Origin: a virus
Virus record (IMG/VR): IMGVR_UViG_3300027976_000183
Coordinates: 1 to 26,470 of that record
Strand: one strand, 5' to 3'
Length of the DNA stretch: 26,470 nt
Each line of letters begins with the position of its first letter. Position 1 is the first letter of the stretch. Shown here piece by piece: positions 6,960 to 21,555 of the stretch. The notes under the pieces are model-generated. The model searched no databases. It was not told the origin of the DNA and saw nothing but the letters and a program-made list of their open reading frames with translations. Position numbers and translations under genes: made by a program.

Positions 6960-7003
6960 TGCGACACACAAAGAAGCCATAAACACACATACGAACACAC
7001 GTC

Positions 7004-7036
7004 AAACCCTTGCAGCTCTAAGCTTGCGGGGGTTTT
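7004..7036 (+). terminator. Factor-independent terminator after the replication operon
   Basis: Left arm AAACCCTTGCAGCT (7004-7017), loop CTA, right arm AGCTTGCGGGGGTTT (7021-7035). The arms pair over 14 bp with one bulged T and two G-T pairs, followed by a T run (7033-7036). It lies 45 bp after the primase-helicase stop, where the rightward early transcript would end. Confidence 0.75.
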
Positions 7037-7119
7037 GTGTCAATGTGTCGGCATTTTCAACATATACATACACCTATAGAGAAGTAGAAATAGAGAAGGA
7101 GAAATAGATAGAGTAGTAG

Positions 7120-7149
7120 ATATATATATATATTATTATTATTATTATT
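7120..7149. repeat. AT / ATT microsatellite
   Basis: (AT)6 at 7120-7131 runs directly into (ATT)6 at 7132-7149. It ends the 79-nt stretch that has no C on the plus strand. On the minus strand the end of the repeat forms an extended -10 box, TGTTATAAT (7155-7147), but no good -35 element or leftward gene goes with it. The tract would melt easily. Confidence 0.8.
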
Positions 7150-7194
7150 ATAACACAGAGGGTGAATAAATAAAAAATTTCAGATAGTTAGCTT

Positions 7195-7222
7195 GTGTCA
7201 ACTTTTTCAAAACAGTTGACAC
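7195..7222. repeat. Perfect inverted repeat, GTGTCAAC / GTTGACAC arms
   Basis: Eight-base perfect arms at 7195-7202 and 7215-7222 around a 12-base T- and A-rich centre. It directly touches a second inverted repeat. The arms contain the GTGTCA word that recurs through the region. TTGACA occurs in the right arm on this strand and in the left arm on the other, but no fitting -10 box is present, so a protein-binding site or origin element is preferred over a promoter. Confidence 0.6.
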
Positions 7223-7244
7223 TGTGCTAAAAAATATTAGCACA
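7223..7244. repeat. Perfect inverted repeat, TGTGCTAA / TTAGCACA arms
   Basis: Eight-base perfect arms at 7223-7230 and 7237-7244 around a 6-base centre (AAAATA). It starts at the base after the preceding inverted repeat ends. No T run follows on either strand, so it does not look like a terminator. It could form a small hairpin or bind a dimeric protein. Confidence 0.6.
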
Positions 7245-7482
7245 ATCTATTTTATATGAATTAAAACAGATATTTATATTGGCGGCTAAAATTTATCCTG
7301 TGTCAGTTCCTACCCGTTTTTCATCGCCTCTGAGAGCACTCGCCTCACGGCCATACATCTGCTCTCACCTGGTAGTCTAATACTGGGCTCAGGAATTCAA
7401 GGTGAGTAGCCATTACCCATACCAGTGCATAGCTTGCATATTCCATGTTGGTTTCACTGGCAGGGCTTGCTAAGGATTTCTA

Positions 7483-7788
7483 TCAGATTGGATTATCTTG
7501 GTGCGGCCTGACTAGGTGCAGGGCGCAAAGATGGGACGAACAATTTTTGATCCTCTCATGAGCATCTTCCCAGCCTACGCATTGCTCACACATGGACCGG
7601 ATTAAAAGCTTTTTACTTTTTGTCCCGGTTAGTGCTTTCGTTAGCCTTCCTATATAGCGCGGCGGTACTCTGGTTAAGGCCAGATACTTATTCTCTGGAA
7701 GTCTCTCCTTTAGTGCTATCATTCTATCAGCCTGGTTTTTTTCTGCTATCTGCCGAGATAAGACCGGATCAATTTTCTGCAAAACCAT
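7483..7788 (-). CDS. Small phage protein with C-terminal cysteine cluster
   Basis: A 101-residue leftward gene from ATG 7788, with AAAGGA about 9 bases upstream. The N-terminal two thirds are helical and basic. The C-terminal third has the pattern IRSMCEQCVGWEDAHERIKNC, a later cysteine, then HLVRPHQ: a CxxC pair, a helix, a third and fourth cysteine, and an R-P motif. This resembles the zinc-binding end of small phage proteins in which a CxxC, a glycine and an I-x-x-C are followed by C-x-L and an arginine; their function is unknown to me. The gene is isolated: it converges with the replication operon and is divergent from the methyltransferase gene. Its own transcription unit suggests an accessory or regulatory role. 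Confidence 0.7.
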   Translation of the reverse strand: MVLQKIDPVLSRQIAEKNQADRMIALKERLPENKYLALTRVPPRYIGRLTKALTGTKSKKLLIRSMCEQCVGWEDAHERIKNCSSHLCALHLVRPHQDNPI

Positions 7789-7941
7789 AACTTCAATCCT
7801 TTATAAATTAGTATGTTGAAAACTCTTATTGTTTGTTTTGAATAAAAAGTAAACAGGAAAGTGCTGCCTACTAATTCCTTGACGACATGTTTCAAAAAAG
7901 AGACACTTGGAAAAATCAACTTGACTTCCCCAAAGGACCGC

Positions 7942-9099
7942 ATGGAAATCTCGCACGTCGATATCGACATCCTAATTACTGATCCCGATAATGCTCGCAA
8001 GCACGACGAAAAAAATATCAAAGCAATCATCGGCTCACTAAAAAAGTTTGATCAAGTTGAGCCTCTCGTAGTTCGGCGTCAAAATAATGTTGTGATCGGC
8101 GGCAACGGCAGACTTGAAGCTATGAAGAAAATGGGTATGTCAGAAGTTAGTGTCCACTACGTTGACCTTGATGATCAAAAAGCTAAGGCGCTCGCACTCG
8201 CACTAAACCGCACAAGTGAACTCGCAACATGGGACGACGACATCCTCGGCAAAGCTTTGCAGACTTTACAAGAAGATGGTTTTGACATTGCCGATATCGG
8301 GTTCGATGTTGGCGACTGGGACACACCTGAAAAAGAAGGGCTGAGCGATCCCGATGAGATACCAGAGGTAGCGCAAAACGTGCGCGGTGTACTTCGAGGG
8401 CAGATATGGAGGCTCGGTGAGCACCGGATGATGTGCGGGGATAGCACTAGCAAGGAAGATGTTGAGAGGCTGATGAATGGTGAGAAGGCTGATATGGTTT
8501 TCACTGATCCGCCGTATGGGATAAATGCTCCATGTGATCGCGTGGAGCATCGCGAGACATTTAAGAAACAGGGAATAGCTAAGAACCATAAGTACAGGCA
8601 GATTGAGGGCGATCAGACAACAGAGGTCGCTAATAAGGCGATAGAACTAATGGACGCCGACTGTCTTATTTTATGGGGTGGTAATTACTACGATTTGCCT
8701 CCTTCTCCTTGCTGGATTGTCTGGGACAAAAGAGTTGAAGAAAATCAATCTGATTTGAACAGCGATTGTGAATTGGCCTGGGTGAAACACAAACACAAGG
8801 CTAGTGTGCGAATTTTTCGACACCTTTGGAAAGGTATGATAAGGGCAAGTGAGAAGTCGGAGGCTCGTGTTCACCCTACACAAAAACCAATAGCCTTGGC
8901 TGAATGGTGTTTTGAAAATTACGGCAATCCCAAGTCAGTCGTCGATCTTTTCCTCGGTTCCGGCTCAACACTAATCGCTTGCGAAAAGACAAACCGCAAG
9001 TGCTACGGTTTAGAAATCGATCCTCATTACTGTTCTGTTATCATTGAACGGTGGGAGAAATTCAGCGGGAAGATCGCAACACTAGCTGCAAAGAAGTAA
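7942..9099 (+). CDS. ParB-like domain fused to DNA methyltransferase
   Basis: About 385 residues from ATG 7942, chosen because AAAGGA lies just upstream and the ParB-like fold begins at once (MEISHVDIDILITDPDNARK). Residues 1-100 form a ParB/sulfiredoxin-type domain with the GGNGRLEAMKKMG motif. The methyltransferase follows: motif IV DPPYG (about 189-193) and, near the C-terminus, motif I as LFLGSGSTLIAC plus GLEIDPHYC. DPPY before FxGxG is the order of beta-class N6-adenine or N4-cytosine methyltransferases such as CcrM. An upstream GTG at 7861 would add 27 residues of no evident fold. ParB-methyltransferase fusions are common beside phage terminase genes. No cognate restriction enzyme is nearby, so modification or regulation is likely. 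Target site unknown. Confidence 0.85.
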   Translation: MEISHVDIDILITDPDNARKHDEKNIKAIIGSLKKFDQVEPLVVRRQNNVVIGGNGRLEAMKKMGMSEVSVHYVDLDDQKAKALALALNRTSELATWDDDILGKALQTLQEDGFDIADIGFDVGDWDTPEKEGLSDPDEIPEVAQNVRGVLRGQIWRLGEHRMMCGDSTSKEDVERLMNGEKADMVFTDPPYGINAPCDRVEHRETFKKQGIAKNHKYRQIEGDQTTEVANKAIELMDADCLILWGGNYYDLPPSPCWIVWDKRVEENQSDLNSDCELAWVKHKHKASVRIFRHLWKGMIRASEKSEARVHPTQKPIALAEWCFENYGNPKSVVDLFLGSGSTLIACEKTNRKCYGLEIDPHYCSVIIERWEKFSGKIATLAAKK

Positions 9100-17500: not shown

Positions 17501-19015
17501 ATGTCTACTATTTCCAGCAGAAATTCGGTACTAGGCGTAGTCACTGAGGTAACTCAAAATCTGTTGAGAGCGCCGCAAGCTGCAACGGACTACGTTCCTC
17601 TACAAGATGACTTCGCTATTGAGCCAAACTTCGATCAGATCGAAAACCTAGAAATTAAATCATCTATCGGTATGGCAGCGTCTATTCAAGGCGGCGAAAA
17701 TCCTACCGCTTCGCTTTCTTTTTATCTAAAAGGTAGCGGCGTCGAAGGCACTGAACCCCAGTGGGGAGATATCGCCGAATCTTTTTTCGGTACTCAGACA
17801 ATTGAAGGCACTCAGAGATCAACAGCGGCAGCTTCTACAGCTTCGCTCATAAAAGTAACAGGTGCGGCTTCTTTGGTTGGCCAGGGTTACGGTATGCTCA
17901 TCAAAGATCCGGTCAACGGGTTTCGCGTAAGAGTGGTTCACAGCGTAGCAACAGACGACATTACTCCTTCATTTAATTTACCTAACGCACCTGGAACAGC
18001 GGTCGGACTTGGTAGACCGGTCTACTGGACACCTGCAAACTCTTTGCATAAGAGCCTGTCTCTTTGGTGGTACGGCGGTAACGGCGGCGCGGTTCAGGCT
18101 GTTTCCGGCGCTTTGATTAACGACTTTAGTTTCTCTCTAACGGCTAACGAAGCGGTTAACGCGACTGCCTCATTTGAGGCGCTTGCATTTTTCTTTGATC
18201 CAATTTTTATCTCTCCCACTCAGACATTTATCGACTTCACAAATGACGACGGTACATTTGCTGCCGCTGTTGCTTCCAAGTGGTACAAAGACCCTCACGA
18301 GTTAGCAGAAGCGGTTACTACTGGAATGAACGCTGCAAGTGTAGGTGAAACTCACTCATGCACATACGTTGACGCGACTGGCAGGTACTTGATCACTTCT
18401 ACGGGTGCGGTTTTATCCCTGCTCTGGAATACCGGCGTAAATGCGGCCAACAGCGTTGGCACTAAGCTAGGGTTTCTAGTCGCTGCCGACGATACAGGCG
18501 CAGCTCCCGCGACTGGTTACACTTCTGACAACGCTCAGTCATATGCAGCGCCGCATACGCCTTCATTTGATCCAAGTCAGTCGATCATTGCTAAGAATCA
18601 GGAAGTTATGATTGGTAATCAAACTGATTTTGCTTGCTTTAACCCTTCTGAAGTTAGCGTTACACTCTCAAACGGCGTGAGAAAAATCGAAGATATTTGC
18701 TCTGAATCTGGTCGAAGTGCTGCAATTATCAATAGCCGAGAAGCTGAGATAACTGTTACCGCACTTCTTACTCAGTACGATGCTAAGCAGATGGCGCGGT
18801 TTAGAAAAGGCGATGCTATCCGTTTCCAAACCACTATGGGAGCGAAACTAGGCGGCAACTGGCTACCTGGCTCAGTGGTTTACTCTTACGCACCGCAATC
18901 TAAAATCACTTCGATCATGATTACAAACGATGACGGTTTAGTTTCTCTTGAGATGACTTTACAGCCGTTTGTATCTGACACTGGAACGCCTGAATTTTAC
19001 CTAGGCCAGCTATAA
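17501..19015 (+). CDS. Major tail tube protein with an internal extra domain
   Basis: A 504-residue protein with ribosome site TAGGAGA before ATG 17501. It resembles phage tail tube proteins: an N-terminal arm (SSRNSVLGVVTEVTQNLLRA), IGMAASIQGGENPTASLSF, and a C-terminal half with EVSVTLSNGVRKIEDICSESG, MARFRKGDAIRFQTTMG and LVSLEMTLQPFVSDTGTPEFY. It is long for a tube protein (usually about 150-250 residues). The extra length includes a domain around residues 240-335 that resembles a segment of the distal tail protein encoded at 21552. Such insertions often decorate the tail surface. Position before the chaperones and tape measure is canonical. Confidence 0.75.
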   Translation: MSTISSRNSVLGVVTEVTQNLLRAPQAATDYVPLQDDFAIEPNFDQIENLEIKSSIGMAASIQGGENPTASLSFYLKGSGVEGTEPQWGDIAESFFGTQTIEGTQRSTAAASTASLIKVTGAASLVGQGYGMLIKDPVNGFRVRVVHSVATDDITPSFNLPNAPGTAVGLGRPVYWTPANSLHKSLSLWWYGGNGGAVQAVSGALINDFSFSLTANEAVNATASFEALAFFFDPIFISPTQTFIDFTNDDGTFAAAVASKWYKDPHELAEAVTTGMNAASVGETHSCTYVDATGRYLITSTGAVLSLLWNTGVNAANSVGTKLGFLVAADDTGAAPATGYTSDNAQSYAAPHTPSFDPSQSIIAKNQEVMIGNQTDFACFNPSEVSVTLSNGVRKIEDICSESGRSAAIINSREAEITVTALLTQYDAKQMARFRKGDAIRFQTTMGAKLGGNWLPGSVVYSYAPQSKITSIMITNDDGLVSLEMTLQPFVSDTGTPEFYLGQL

Positions 19016-19080
19016 AAAAAGAGTTTTGACTAGTTTCTCTTTAAAAAACTAGCTGATATCCAAATATTTACGGAGATATA
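19016..19080. other. Short spacer with a weak hairpin
   Basis: Sixty-five bases between the tail tube and chaperone genes. CTAGTTT (19030-19036) and AAACTAG (19046-19052) form a 7-bp A+T-rich dyad, without a T run after it, so it is not called a terminator. It could trim or stabilise the tail tube message. The ribosome site ACGGAGAT precedes the next ATG. Confidence 0.35.
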
Positions 19081-19473
19081 ATGCGACCGACTAAAAAGTT
19101 TACGCCTTCGATTTGTTCTGAAGGAAAATATGAAGGATACGTTATTTTAAACGTCCCAACATATGACGAACGAAACGATTTCTTTTTCATTGCTGATTAC
19201 GATATGGAAAAAAGCATCGAAGGCGTGGAAATGTCTGAAGCTGAAAAAGATGCACTCACTCTGAAAAAAACCAAAGCACGTATAAAAAATATCAAAGACC
19301 AGTTACCAGCTTGGATAGTGGAAATTAATATAAAAAGAATCGATGACGGTTTTATATTCGATAGCTACGAATCTGTTAAGTACGATTCTGAGGTCGGCGC
19401 ACTCGGTCAGGAAATGATTAACGAATTGATCGGGAAGTTTCGTTACGGAAACCCGCTGTTGCAGCCGAGTTAA
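19081..19473 (+). CDS. Tail assembly chaperone (lambda gpG-like, short form)
   Basis: A 130-residue protein with ribosome site CGGAGAT before ATG 19081. It starts with strand-rich residues (KYEGYVILNVPTYDERNDF), has an acidic helical middle (SEAEKDALTLKKTKARIKN) and ends PLLQPS at TAA 19471. Position between the tail tube and tape measure genes is that of the lambda G chaperone family, and the last codons contain a slippery AAACCCG that allows a -1 shift into the following frame. Most ribosomes should make this short form. The chaperone is expected to hold tube subunits and the tape measure during tail assembly and to be absent from the finished virion. The function is inferred from position and the frameshift. 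Confidence 0.8.
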   Translation: MRPTKKFTPSICSEGKYEGYVILNVPTYDERNDFFFIADYDMEKSIEGVEMSEAEKDALTLKKTKARIKNIKDQLPAWIVEINIKRIDDGFIFDSYESVKYDSEVGALGQEMINELIGKFRYGNPLLQPS

Positions 19474-19493
19474 GGCGGGCGGCGGCTGCAATA
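19449..19493 (+). promoter_or_regulatory. Programmed -1 frameshift site with downstream stem-loop
   Basis: AAACCCG at 19449-19455 is a canonical X-XXY-YYZ heptamer in the correct register (codons AAC and CCG). It is followed after one base by a stem: 19457-19467 pairs with 19483-19493 over 11 bp, nine of them perfect Watson-Crick (TTGCAGCCG with CGGCTGCAA), around a 15-base loop. The short product stop TAA (19471-19473) lies in that loop. Slippery site, structure and the open frame beyond give the full signal expected for the lambda G-T type shift. Confidence 0.85.
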
Positions 19494-19691
19494 TTTCGAG
19501 GCCACACATACGATAGTCCGATGAATTTAATTATTCATGATTACTGCTCAAGAAAAAGATTAGCAAGCTTAGGGTTTACTTCGGACCTGGCACTGTTAAG
19601 CGCTGATAACGCTGACGCCTTTATAGCGATAGATTTAAAGCTGCAAGAAATCCAACAAGAGAAGGCCAAGAAAGGTAAGCGAAATGTCTAA
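19455..19691 (+). CDS. Frameshift extension of the tail assembly chaperone (gpGT-like)
   Basis: After slipping back one base at AAACCCG the ribosome reads 78 more codons to TAA 19689-19691, giving a fusion of 125 plus 78, or 203 residues. The extension starts AVAAELRRAAAAIFRGHTYD and is clearly protein-like, with HDYCSRKRLASLGFTSDLAL and an acidic-basic helical tail ending KKGKRNV. There is no good independent ribosome site before the internal ATG 19521, which argues that the region is made only as the fusion. The extension overlaps the tape measure start by 8 bases. The G-T fusion in lambda contacts the tape measure and recruits tube subunits; the same is inferred here. Confidence 0.8.
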   Translation, partial: AVAAELRRAAAAIFRGHTYDSPMNLIIHDYCSRKRLASLGFTSDLALLSADNADAFIAIDLKLQEIQQEKAKKGKRNV

Positions 19692-21555
19692 TAAAGCAGT
19701 CTTAGAAGTCGAAGTAGTTACCGAAGGCGCGAAAAAGTCTCTCAAGGATTTCGAATCTAAAGCCGGTGATATGGGAAAAAATGTCGGCTCGGCTTTTACT
19801 TTTTTAAAAGTGGCAGCGGCGGCAGCGGTAGCAGTATTTGCAAGTAAACAAGTAATCGACTTTTTCGAATCTGGTATAGAAGCCGCTGTTATGCAGGAAC
19901 AGGCTATGGCTTCGCTTGCTCAACAGTTAAAAGCAACGGGCAGTTTTTCCAACAAGGCGATGACCGATTTTGCTGCCTTCGCTGACCAGATGGAATTAAC
20001 AACTACTCACGGCGATGATTTAATTATCAGTCAACTAGCTGTTGCTAAGGCAATGGGACTTACTAACTCACAGTCACAAGATCTCGTGAGAGCGGCAACA
20101 GAATTATCTGCCGTTACGGGAGATAGTTTAGCTACCTCAGTTGAAGCACTTGGTAAAACCTATGAAGGCATTACTGGTCGATCACCCGTTTTGAGAGAAG
20201 CATTAAGGGGTATTACCAAAGAAGCGCTAGCCAGCGGTGCGGGCATAAGGGCTGTACAGGCAGCACTCGGCGGTTCAGCAGAGGCTCAGATCAACACATA
20301 TGCAGGTTCTATAAAGCAAGCAGAAAACGCTTTCGGTAATTTACAAGAATCATTCGGCAAGATTATTATTGAAAATCCTGCTTTGCTTGCAACTATAAAA
20401 GCGGTCACAGATATTTTCGTAAAGATGCAAGCTGAAGTTAATGAAAACGAAAAATCATTAAGCGACTTCGTTACCCTTGGAGTAGAAGTATTAGCCTTTA
20501 GTCTTACCGCTGCCATGCCTATTTTGGGTTTTACCATAAGAGCGTTCCAGGGGTTATCTAATGCAGCAAGCGTTCTGGTGTTGGGTATGCTTGAATTAAA
20601 CAGGCTCTCAACTAAGCTTGACGCTGCACTGTTTGGCGGCGAAGCGGCTAAGGCGGCAGCAGTAAAAGCTGAGGCGGCCTCTGAAAAATTCGGGATGTTT
20701 TTTGCGAATAATGTTGAAGCGCAAGAAAAATTCAATCTTGGTTTTAAATCCCTACAAGATAAGGTAGACGGTGCCGCTCTTAAAATAGCTGAGGCAGATA
20801 ACGCAACAGCTACATCTTCTAGGGCTTCCACGTCCGAAAGGGCTAAGAATTACGGACGGGACGCCGAGGCTTCAAAGGGTAGAGAAGCCGCAATCAAATC
20901 CTTTTCAACACTTGAAGGCGTTTTAGGCGGCGAATCATCCAAGGTATTTAAGAAGTGGACCGATCAAAAACTAGAGCAGTTAAATGAATCTAAAAAAGTT
21001 GATGCGGGCATAGGTACATCGGCTCAAAGTACATTACAAATAAAAACAACGGCAATTAAGCAATTTACAACTGATTACAAATCAGAACTATCCAAAATAA
21101 AAATAAGTGAAGATGCAGCAAATGCATCAAGTGTTAGCTCATTTAAAACCGCATATGCTGAAAAGGTTTCGACAACAAAAACGCAGCAGGCCGTTATAGC
21201 GCAAGAACAAAAACCAAAGGCGGGGAGCACTACCATAGCTCTAACCGGCAGTAGTCCCGGCTTTGCTCGCGGGTTAACAGAAGTACCAAGTGGGTTTCCT
21301 AACGATACATTTCCAGCGCGTCTTACCTCTGGTGAGCGGGTAGTAGATAGTAGTACAAACGGCGATCTAAAAGAATTTCTATCAAGCGCAGGCGGTGCGG
21401 GATTTGGTAATCAAGAAGCTATCGCACTACTCAGACAGATCGCAGCTAACATGGGTATGGCTAGTCCACAAACAATTGAGGTCACGATAGATAAGAAGGT
21501 TTTAGGCAGAACTATCCTTGATCTGAACAGAAGAAACGAGAGGGTTACGGTATGA
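19684..21555 (+). CDS. Tape measure protein
   Basis: A 623-residue protein, ATG 19684. An N-terminal segment (ESKAGDMGKNVGSAFTFLK) is followed by hydrophobic stretches at about residues 35-60 (AAAAAVAVFASKQVIDFFESG) and 262-300 (LAFSLTAAMPILGFTIRAF). Long helical, alanine-rich regions rich in K and E fill the middle. The C-terminus carries GFARGLTEVPSGFPNDTFPA, then ERVVDSSTNGDLKEFL, a motif of tape measure ends. It is the longest tail gene and directly follows the chaperones, as in other siphoviruses. At roughly 0.15 nm per residue, a tail of about 90 nm would be expected; that is a rule of thumb. It forms the ruler inside the tube and may enter the host membrane. Confidence 0.9.
   Translation: MSNKAVLEVEVVTEGAKKSLKDFESKAGDMGKNVGSAFTFLKVAAAAAVAVFASKQVIDFFESGIEAAVMQEQAMASLAQQLKATGSFSNKAMTDFAAFADQMELTTTHGDDLIISQLAVAKAMGLTNSQSQDLVRAATELSAVTGDSLATSVEALGKTYEGITGRSPVLREALRGITKEALASGAGIRAVQAALGGSAEAQINTYAGSIKQAENAFGNLQESFGKIIIENPALLATIKAVTDIFVKMQAEVNENEKSLSDFVTLGVEVLAFSLTAAMPILGFTIRAFQGLSNAASVLVLGMLELNRLSTKLDAALFGGEAAKAAAVKAEAASEKFGMFFANNVEAQEKFNLGFKSLQDKVDGAALKIAEADNATATSSRASTSERAKNYGRDAEASKGREAAIKSFSTLEGVLGGESSKVFKKWTDQKLEQLNESKKVDAGIGTSAQSTLQIKTTAIKQFTTDYKSELSKIKISEDAANASSVSSFKTAYAEKVSTTKTQQAVIAQEQKPKAGSTTIALTGSSPGFARGLTEVPSGFPNDTFPARLTSGERVVDSSTNGDLKEFLSSAGGAGFGNQEAIALLRQIAANMGMASPQTIEVTIDKKVLGRTILDLNRRNERVTV

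Follow-up and report, generated by a model that had tools for sequence, protein, structure and literature searches.

The locus studied here lies in a 26,470-base IMG/VR virus record known from metagenomes, which was analysed over its whole length and is herein called the window. Between the genes for a tail tube protein and a tape measure protein we found two overlapping ORFs, together with the following features.

17501..19015, + strand: tail tube protein gene, matching Pfam PF18906 Phage_tube_2 with 30.3 bits (cut-off 27) and phrog_290 tail.
19081..19473, + strand: zero-frame product of 130 aa, a putative gpG-like tail assembly chaperone, seen as an ORF with >40 aligned relatives and modelled with AlphaFold2.
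19449..19455, + strand: slippery heptamer A AAC CCG, re-paired as AAA CCC after the −1 slip, in exact register.
19455..19691, + strand: −1-frame extension of 78 codons plus stop, a probable gpT-like domain according to homologues, selection and AlphaFold2.
19457..19467, + strand: 5′ arm of a stem (conserved core 19461–19467), with the core pairs kept in the related locus L004.
19471..19473, + strand: zero-frame stop TAA, in the loop of the stem.
19483..19493, + strand: 3′ arm of the stem (conserved core 19483–19489), with the core pairs likewise kept in L004.
19684..21555, + strand: tape measure protein gene, a 623-aa ORF with N-terminal homology to relatives at the same position.

The order of the genes is thereby tail tube, G, GT and tape measure, and because the tail tube gene is found directly 5′ of the G ORF (19081–19473), with terminase and major head protein genes farther upstream, the G/T pair occupies the position of G and T in phage lambda. 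No tRNA genes were encoded in the window and none of it matched Rfam. In another part of the window (7861–9099), a 412-aa ORF has a DNA methylase domain (N6_N4_Mtase) and, within the same protein, a weak match to the ParB N-terminus, and the approximately 900 bases at 6960–7860 contain simple AT-rich repeats, match nothing in Rfam and have no obvious + strand gene.

The codons GGA AAC CCG occupy positions 19447–19455, which makes AAACCCG an exact X_XXY_YYZ heptamer, in the very register given by the original prediction, where AAC and CCG can re-pair as AAA and CCC. An open −1 frame spans 19422–19691 and gives 78 residues counted from 19455, resulting in a fusion of 203 residues, and the stop of the extension ends 8 bases within the tape measure ORF that starts at 19684. 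The length and end of this frame, as well as the placement of the zero-frame stop in the loop, had been correctly read in that same prediction.

Related IMG/VR loci, which are labelled with L-numbers (L002, L004 etc.), were collected via their tail tube and tape measure proteins, yielding 79 distinct junctions once duplicates had been dropped, along with four cases that were unclear or single-frame. The 79 loci share the same layout with a homologous extension, and all of the listed ones are in the −1 register. With a profile of the extension, a homologue preceding the tape measure gene was found at 65 of the 67 loci tested, and also at 27 additional distinct loci beyond those 67. When checked for interrupting stops, the extension held in its homologues, and the frameshift reading stood. 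Comparing the window with L004 past the zero-frame stop, we obtained a pS of 0.89 and a pN of 0.175 for the −1 frame, with the relation reversed in the other two frames; judging from these substitutions, the extension evolves as a −1-frame protein under purifying selection. One further locus, L158 (3989–4588), joins G to T within one ORF of 200 codons, and only the long form is thus expected there, unless another mechanism gives a short one.

With regard to the slip site, an in-phase X_XXY_YYZ heptamer located no more than 30 nt from the zero-frame stop was present in 69 of the 79 loci, most often as GGGAAAC (22 loci), GGGAAAG (14), AAAAAAG (11), AAAAAAA (8) or AAAAAAC (6) and more rarely as GGGAAAA (3), AAACCCG (2), AAACCCT, CCCAAAC or CCCAAAG (one each). 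Analyzing the last 36 nt of the first 52 loci, we found an in-phase heptamer in 45, with 14 and 8 in the other two phases, while in matched control coding 5.3% of 36-nt stretches had a heptamer in phase. A heptamer alone is therefore weak evidence, since about 5% of controls have one by chance, and it is the conservation that makes the case. The AAACCCG heptamer, already noted in the original prediction to differ from the GGGAAAG of lambda, was confined to the species of the window and L004 among the relatives found, and a text search of the literature for AAACCCG together with frameshift and slippery gave no paper. Candidate slip sites of other kinds than X_XXY_YYZ were also seen at the end of the G ORF, these being GGGGGAG in L175, GGGGGAA in L197 and GTGGGGAAG in L007. 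The PRFect slip sites of actinobacteriophage tail chaperones are varied, having all four bases at X, Y and Z (PMC10885494); GGGGGAA (L197) and CCCGGAA (L099) occur both there and here, whereas the actinobacteriophage sites come from joins annotated in other phages, and the searched portion of the text on them held no example of AAACCCG.

The stem that follows the heptamer has nine Watson–Crick pairs (19459–19467/19483–19491), or 11 pairs when U19457–A19493 and G19458–U19492 at its foot are included, and a minimum free energy of −19.5 kcal/mol. It starts 1 nt after the heptamer if taken as the 11-bp stem, 3 nt after it if taken as the nine perfect pairs and 5 nt after it if taken as the seven-pair core, and hence the original description of nine perfect pairs starting one base after the heptamer was correct in its spacing for the 11-bp stem but not for the nine pairs. 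As a stimulatory structure we counted one that is stable, lies 5–8 nt downstream and goes beyond coding expectation, with random synonymous recoding of the −1-frame peptide AVAAELRRAAAAIFR used as the null. It was found that 17% of the window recodings were equally or more stable, a share that rose to 30% when the first 4 nt were skipped, the reason being that GCN codons occurring in runs can pair among themselves. The strength of the window stem is consequently for the most part a by-product of alanine-rich coding and, being matched by 17–30% of recodings, the stem is not by itself the evidence for frameshifting that it had been taken for.

It is accordingly possible, although we lean towards the opposite, that the hairpin has no role here beyond reflecting the GCN-rich coding of the extension. 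In addition to the recodings of equal or better stability, the loss of the outer pairs in L004 agrees with such a reading, but in L004 the seven core pairs are preserved by two compensatory changes, both synonymous and in the third position of Ala codons, and the L004 stem beats its own recoding null (1–2%). The structure after the slip site, compared with recoding, also had a mean z of −1.15 (51 nt) or −1.77 (99 nt) over 51 loci of the family, whereas control coding of the same 51 loci gave −0.21 (51 nt) and −0.09 (99 nt). As the structure exceeds recoding and the controls do not, RNA structure at this place is under selection across the family, and a stimulatory structure appears likely to be a family trait. 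Stronger stems at proline-type slip sites were not borne out in comparison with either GGGAAAG (Mann–Whitney p 0.34) or AAAAAAG (p 0.84). Very strong structures were seen after the slip in L111, L034, L156 and L120 (z −4.3 to −6.8, recoding null, 99 nt), and these would be good candidates for strong frameshift stimulators.

Another reading, which we consider unlikely, is that the frameshift is real but occurs elsewhere in the overlap, for example through slippage of a single tRNA on C_CCG, or else at C GGA AAC, which lies one codon farther upstream, with XXX being incidental. Five loci do keep an in-phase C_CCN without XXX (TTCCCCT in L101 and L104, AACCCCT in L106, CTCCCCT in L110 and AAC CCC TTG in L173), and C GGA AAC could be seen as a degenerate remnant, with GGGAAAC present in L012 of the same clade, but no re-pairing is possible in the P site at C GGA AAC. 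Moreover, TAC GGA AAC CCG is unchanged in L004 despite strong codon divergence, with upstream same-residue codons identical in only 23 of 52 cases, and AAACCCT is kept in L100. In the E. coli survey by Sharma et al. 2014 (PMC4066793), C_CCG alone reaches only 1.8–3.6-fold over background, even with a pseudoknot. The same survey has A_AA.C_CC.G among the 64 motifs tested and, using the IS3 pseudoknot, lists three heptamers below threshold that include A_AA.C_CC.A, not A_AA.C_CC.G (PMC4066793). It also gives CCN A-site codons as shifting less on average than AAN or UUN, with the class of slip sites having proline in the A site being weak in E. coli (PMC4066793), although these are reporter data from that species, and the host of the phage may differ.

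We included seven proline-type loci in a tree of the G protein, with L173 left out as it was found later. All seven fell within one clade of 12 (support 95/92), a clade also including GGGAAAA and GGGAAAC members as well as L007 and L099. The proline-type loci did not form one sub-clade in this tree, with 3 changes on the tree, and an AU test of the seven as a single clade gave p 0.105, meaning that this grouping was neither shown nor rejected; using the extension tree alone, the proline-type sites were not grouped. The G tree suggests a drift of the site within that clade, away from GGGAAAN and towards a proline codon, the proposed series being AAACCCG and AAACCCT, then AACCCCT, TTCCCCT and CTCCCCT without an intact XXX. 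The four loci L101, L104, L106 and L110 have in common a stem of longer range, in which two pairs are compensatory. Whether this one clade has moved its frameshift from GGGAAAN to an A-site proline, with stem-helped slippage of tRNA-Pro on C_CCN setting the G:GT ratio, is a proposal for which we see the chances as evenly balanced.

That the −1-frame ORF would be a separate gene, having its own start at ATG 19521 or being translated by reinitiation after the TAA, is highly improbable. The ATG at 19521 does give 56 codons, but no Shine–Dalgarno-like sequence precedes it, a start there would lose the conserved ELRRAxAAxFRG part, L004 and most aligned relatives have no Met at that place, and in L158 the two halves are read as one continuous frame. 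The existence of that single-frame version could also hint at the two frames being a broken gene or a sequencing error, but this is refuted by the conserved layout, with independent contigs at 20–77% protein identity retaining both frames, their shared register and a slip site, and the L002 contig, near-identical to the window, being identical over 19000–19700, so that we give it a practically negligible probability.

The AlphaFold2 model of the G product was a confident one, with a pLDDT of 88.7. Among re-aligned PDB chains its first match was the HK97 tail assembly chaperone (2ob9), and this best structural match to the predicted fold was modest (Z 4.6), with 77 residues aligned at 4.0 Å and only 8% identity. 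Several matches of the G model in BFVD were named tail assembly chaperone, at E-values of 0.27 or worse. The T domain was likewise confidently predicted, as three helices (AlphaFold2 pLDDT 87), and its model had no convincing PDB match (Foldseek, VIA). No usable match was found for the G half in Pfam, PHROGs or NCBIfam, nor for the T half in Pfam or PHROGs, and no relevant hit emerged when PDB sequences were searched with profiles. Neither did we find any relative among GenBank phages, using tblastn with the fusion, the tail tube, the tape measure and the tail tube of a relative, or in the GTDB genomes scanned. As far as these searches tell, the family is new to Pfam, PHROGs, NCBIfam (G half) and GenBank phages.

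Considering the synteny, the conservation at 79 loci, the purifying selection in the −1 frame, the L158 fusion and the predicted fold, whose modest best match is the HK97 chaperone, we conclude that the locus very probably has a tail-chaperone −1 frameshift of the lambda G/GT type at AAACCCG, with a 203-aa GT fusion as the predicted minority product, in line with the original prediction. Counting against this reading are the A-site CCN codon of AAACCCG, belonging to a class less prone to shift in E. coli, a window stem no stronger than expected from its coding and the modest fold matches. Most ribosomes would stop at 19473, giving the 130-aa G protein, and a minority would slip back one base with tRNA-Asn (AAC) in the P site and tRNA-Pro (CCG) in the A site. 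The slipped tRNAs would re-pair on AAA and CCC, presumably with modest stimulation by the stem, and 78 more codons would be read to yield the GT fusion. If lambda is a guide, G may coat the tape measure protein, with the T domain recruiting tail tube subunits.

In lambda, the gpG/gpGT tail assembly chaperones are produced via a −1 frameshift that is conserved (Xu, Hendrix and Duda 2004; summarised in PMC5009743). With the ratio in lambda being about 30 G to one GT (PMC5009743), a low efficiency at AAACCCG would fit the role. The window and lambda are alike in having the order tail tube, G, T and tape measure, a short first ORF, an overlapping −1 extension, a slip site located close to where G ends and two products expected at an unequal ratio; they are unlike in their heptamers (AAACCCG and GGGAAAG, respectively), and no sequence similarity between them was detectable via Pfam, PHROGs or NCBIfam. 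Frameshifting of the −1 type between tail chaperone genes is well known in phages, and the kind of system found here is ordinary, with the proline-type slip site being its one unusual point.

The finding adds a putative tail chaperone family to the known class of G/GT frameshifts and, with the family being absent from the databases searched, gene callers will miss the GT fusion that these phages encode. A natural series is also provided by the proline-type sites, with which one could ask to what extent slip sites can drift from the rules seen in E. coli, and whether other sets of tRNA-Pro in the hosts, or downstream stems, may compensate.
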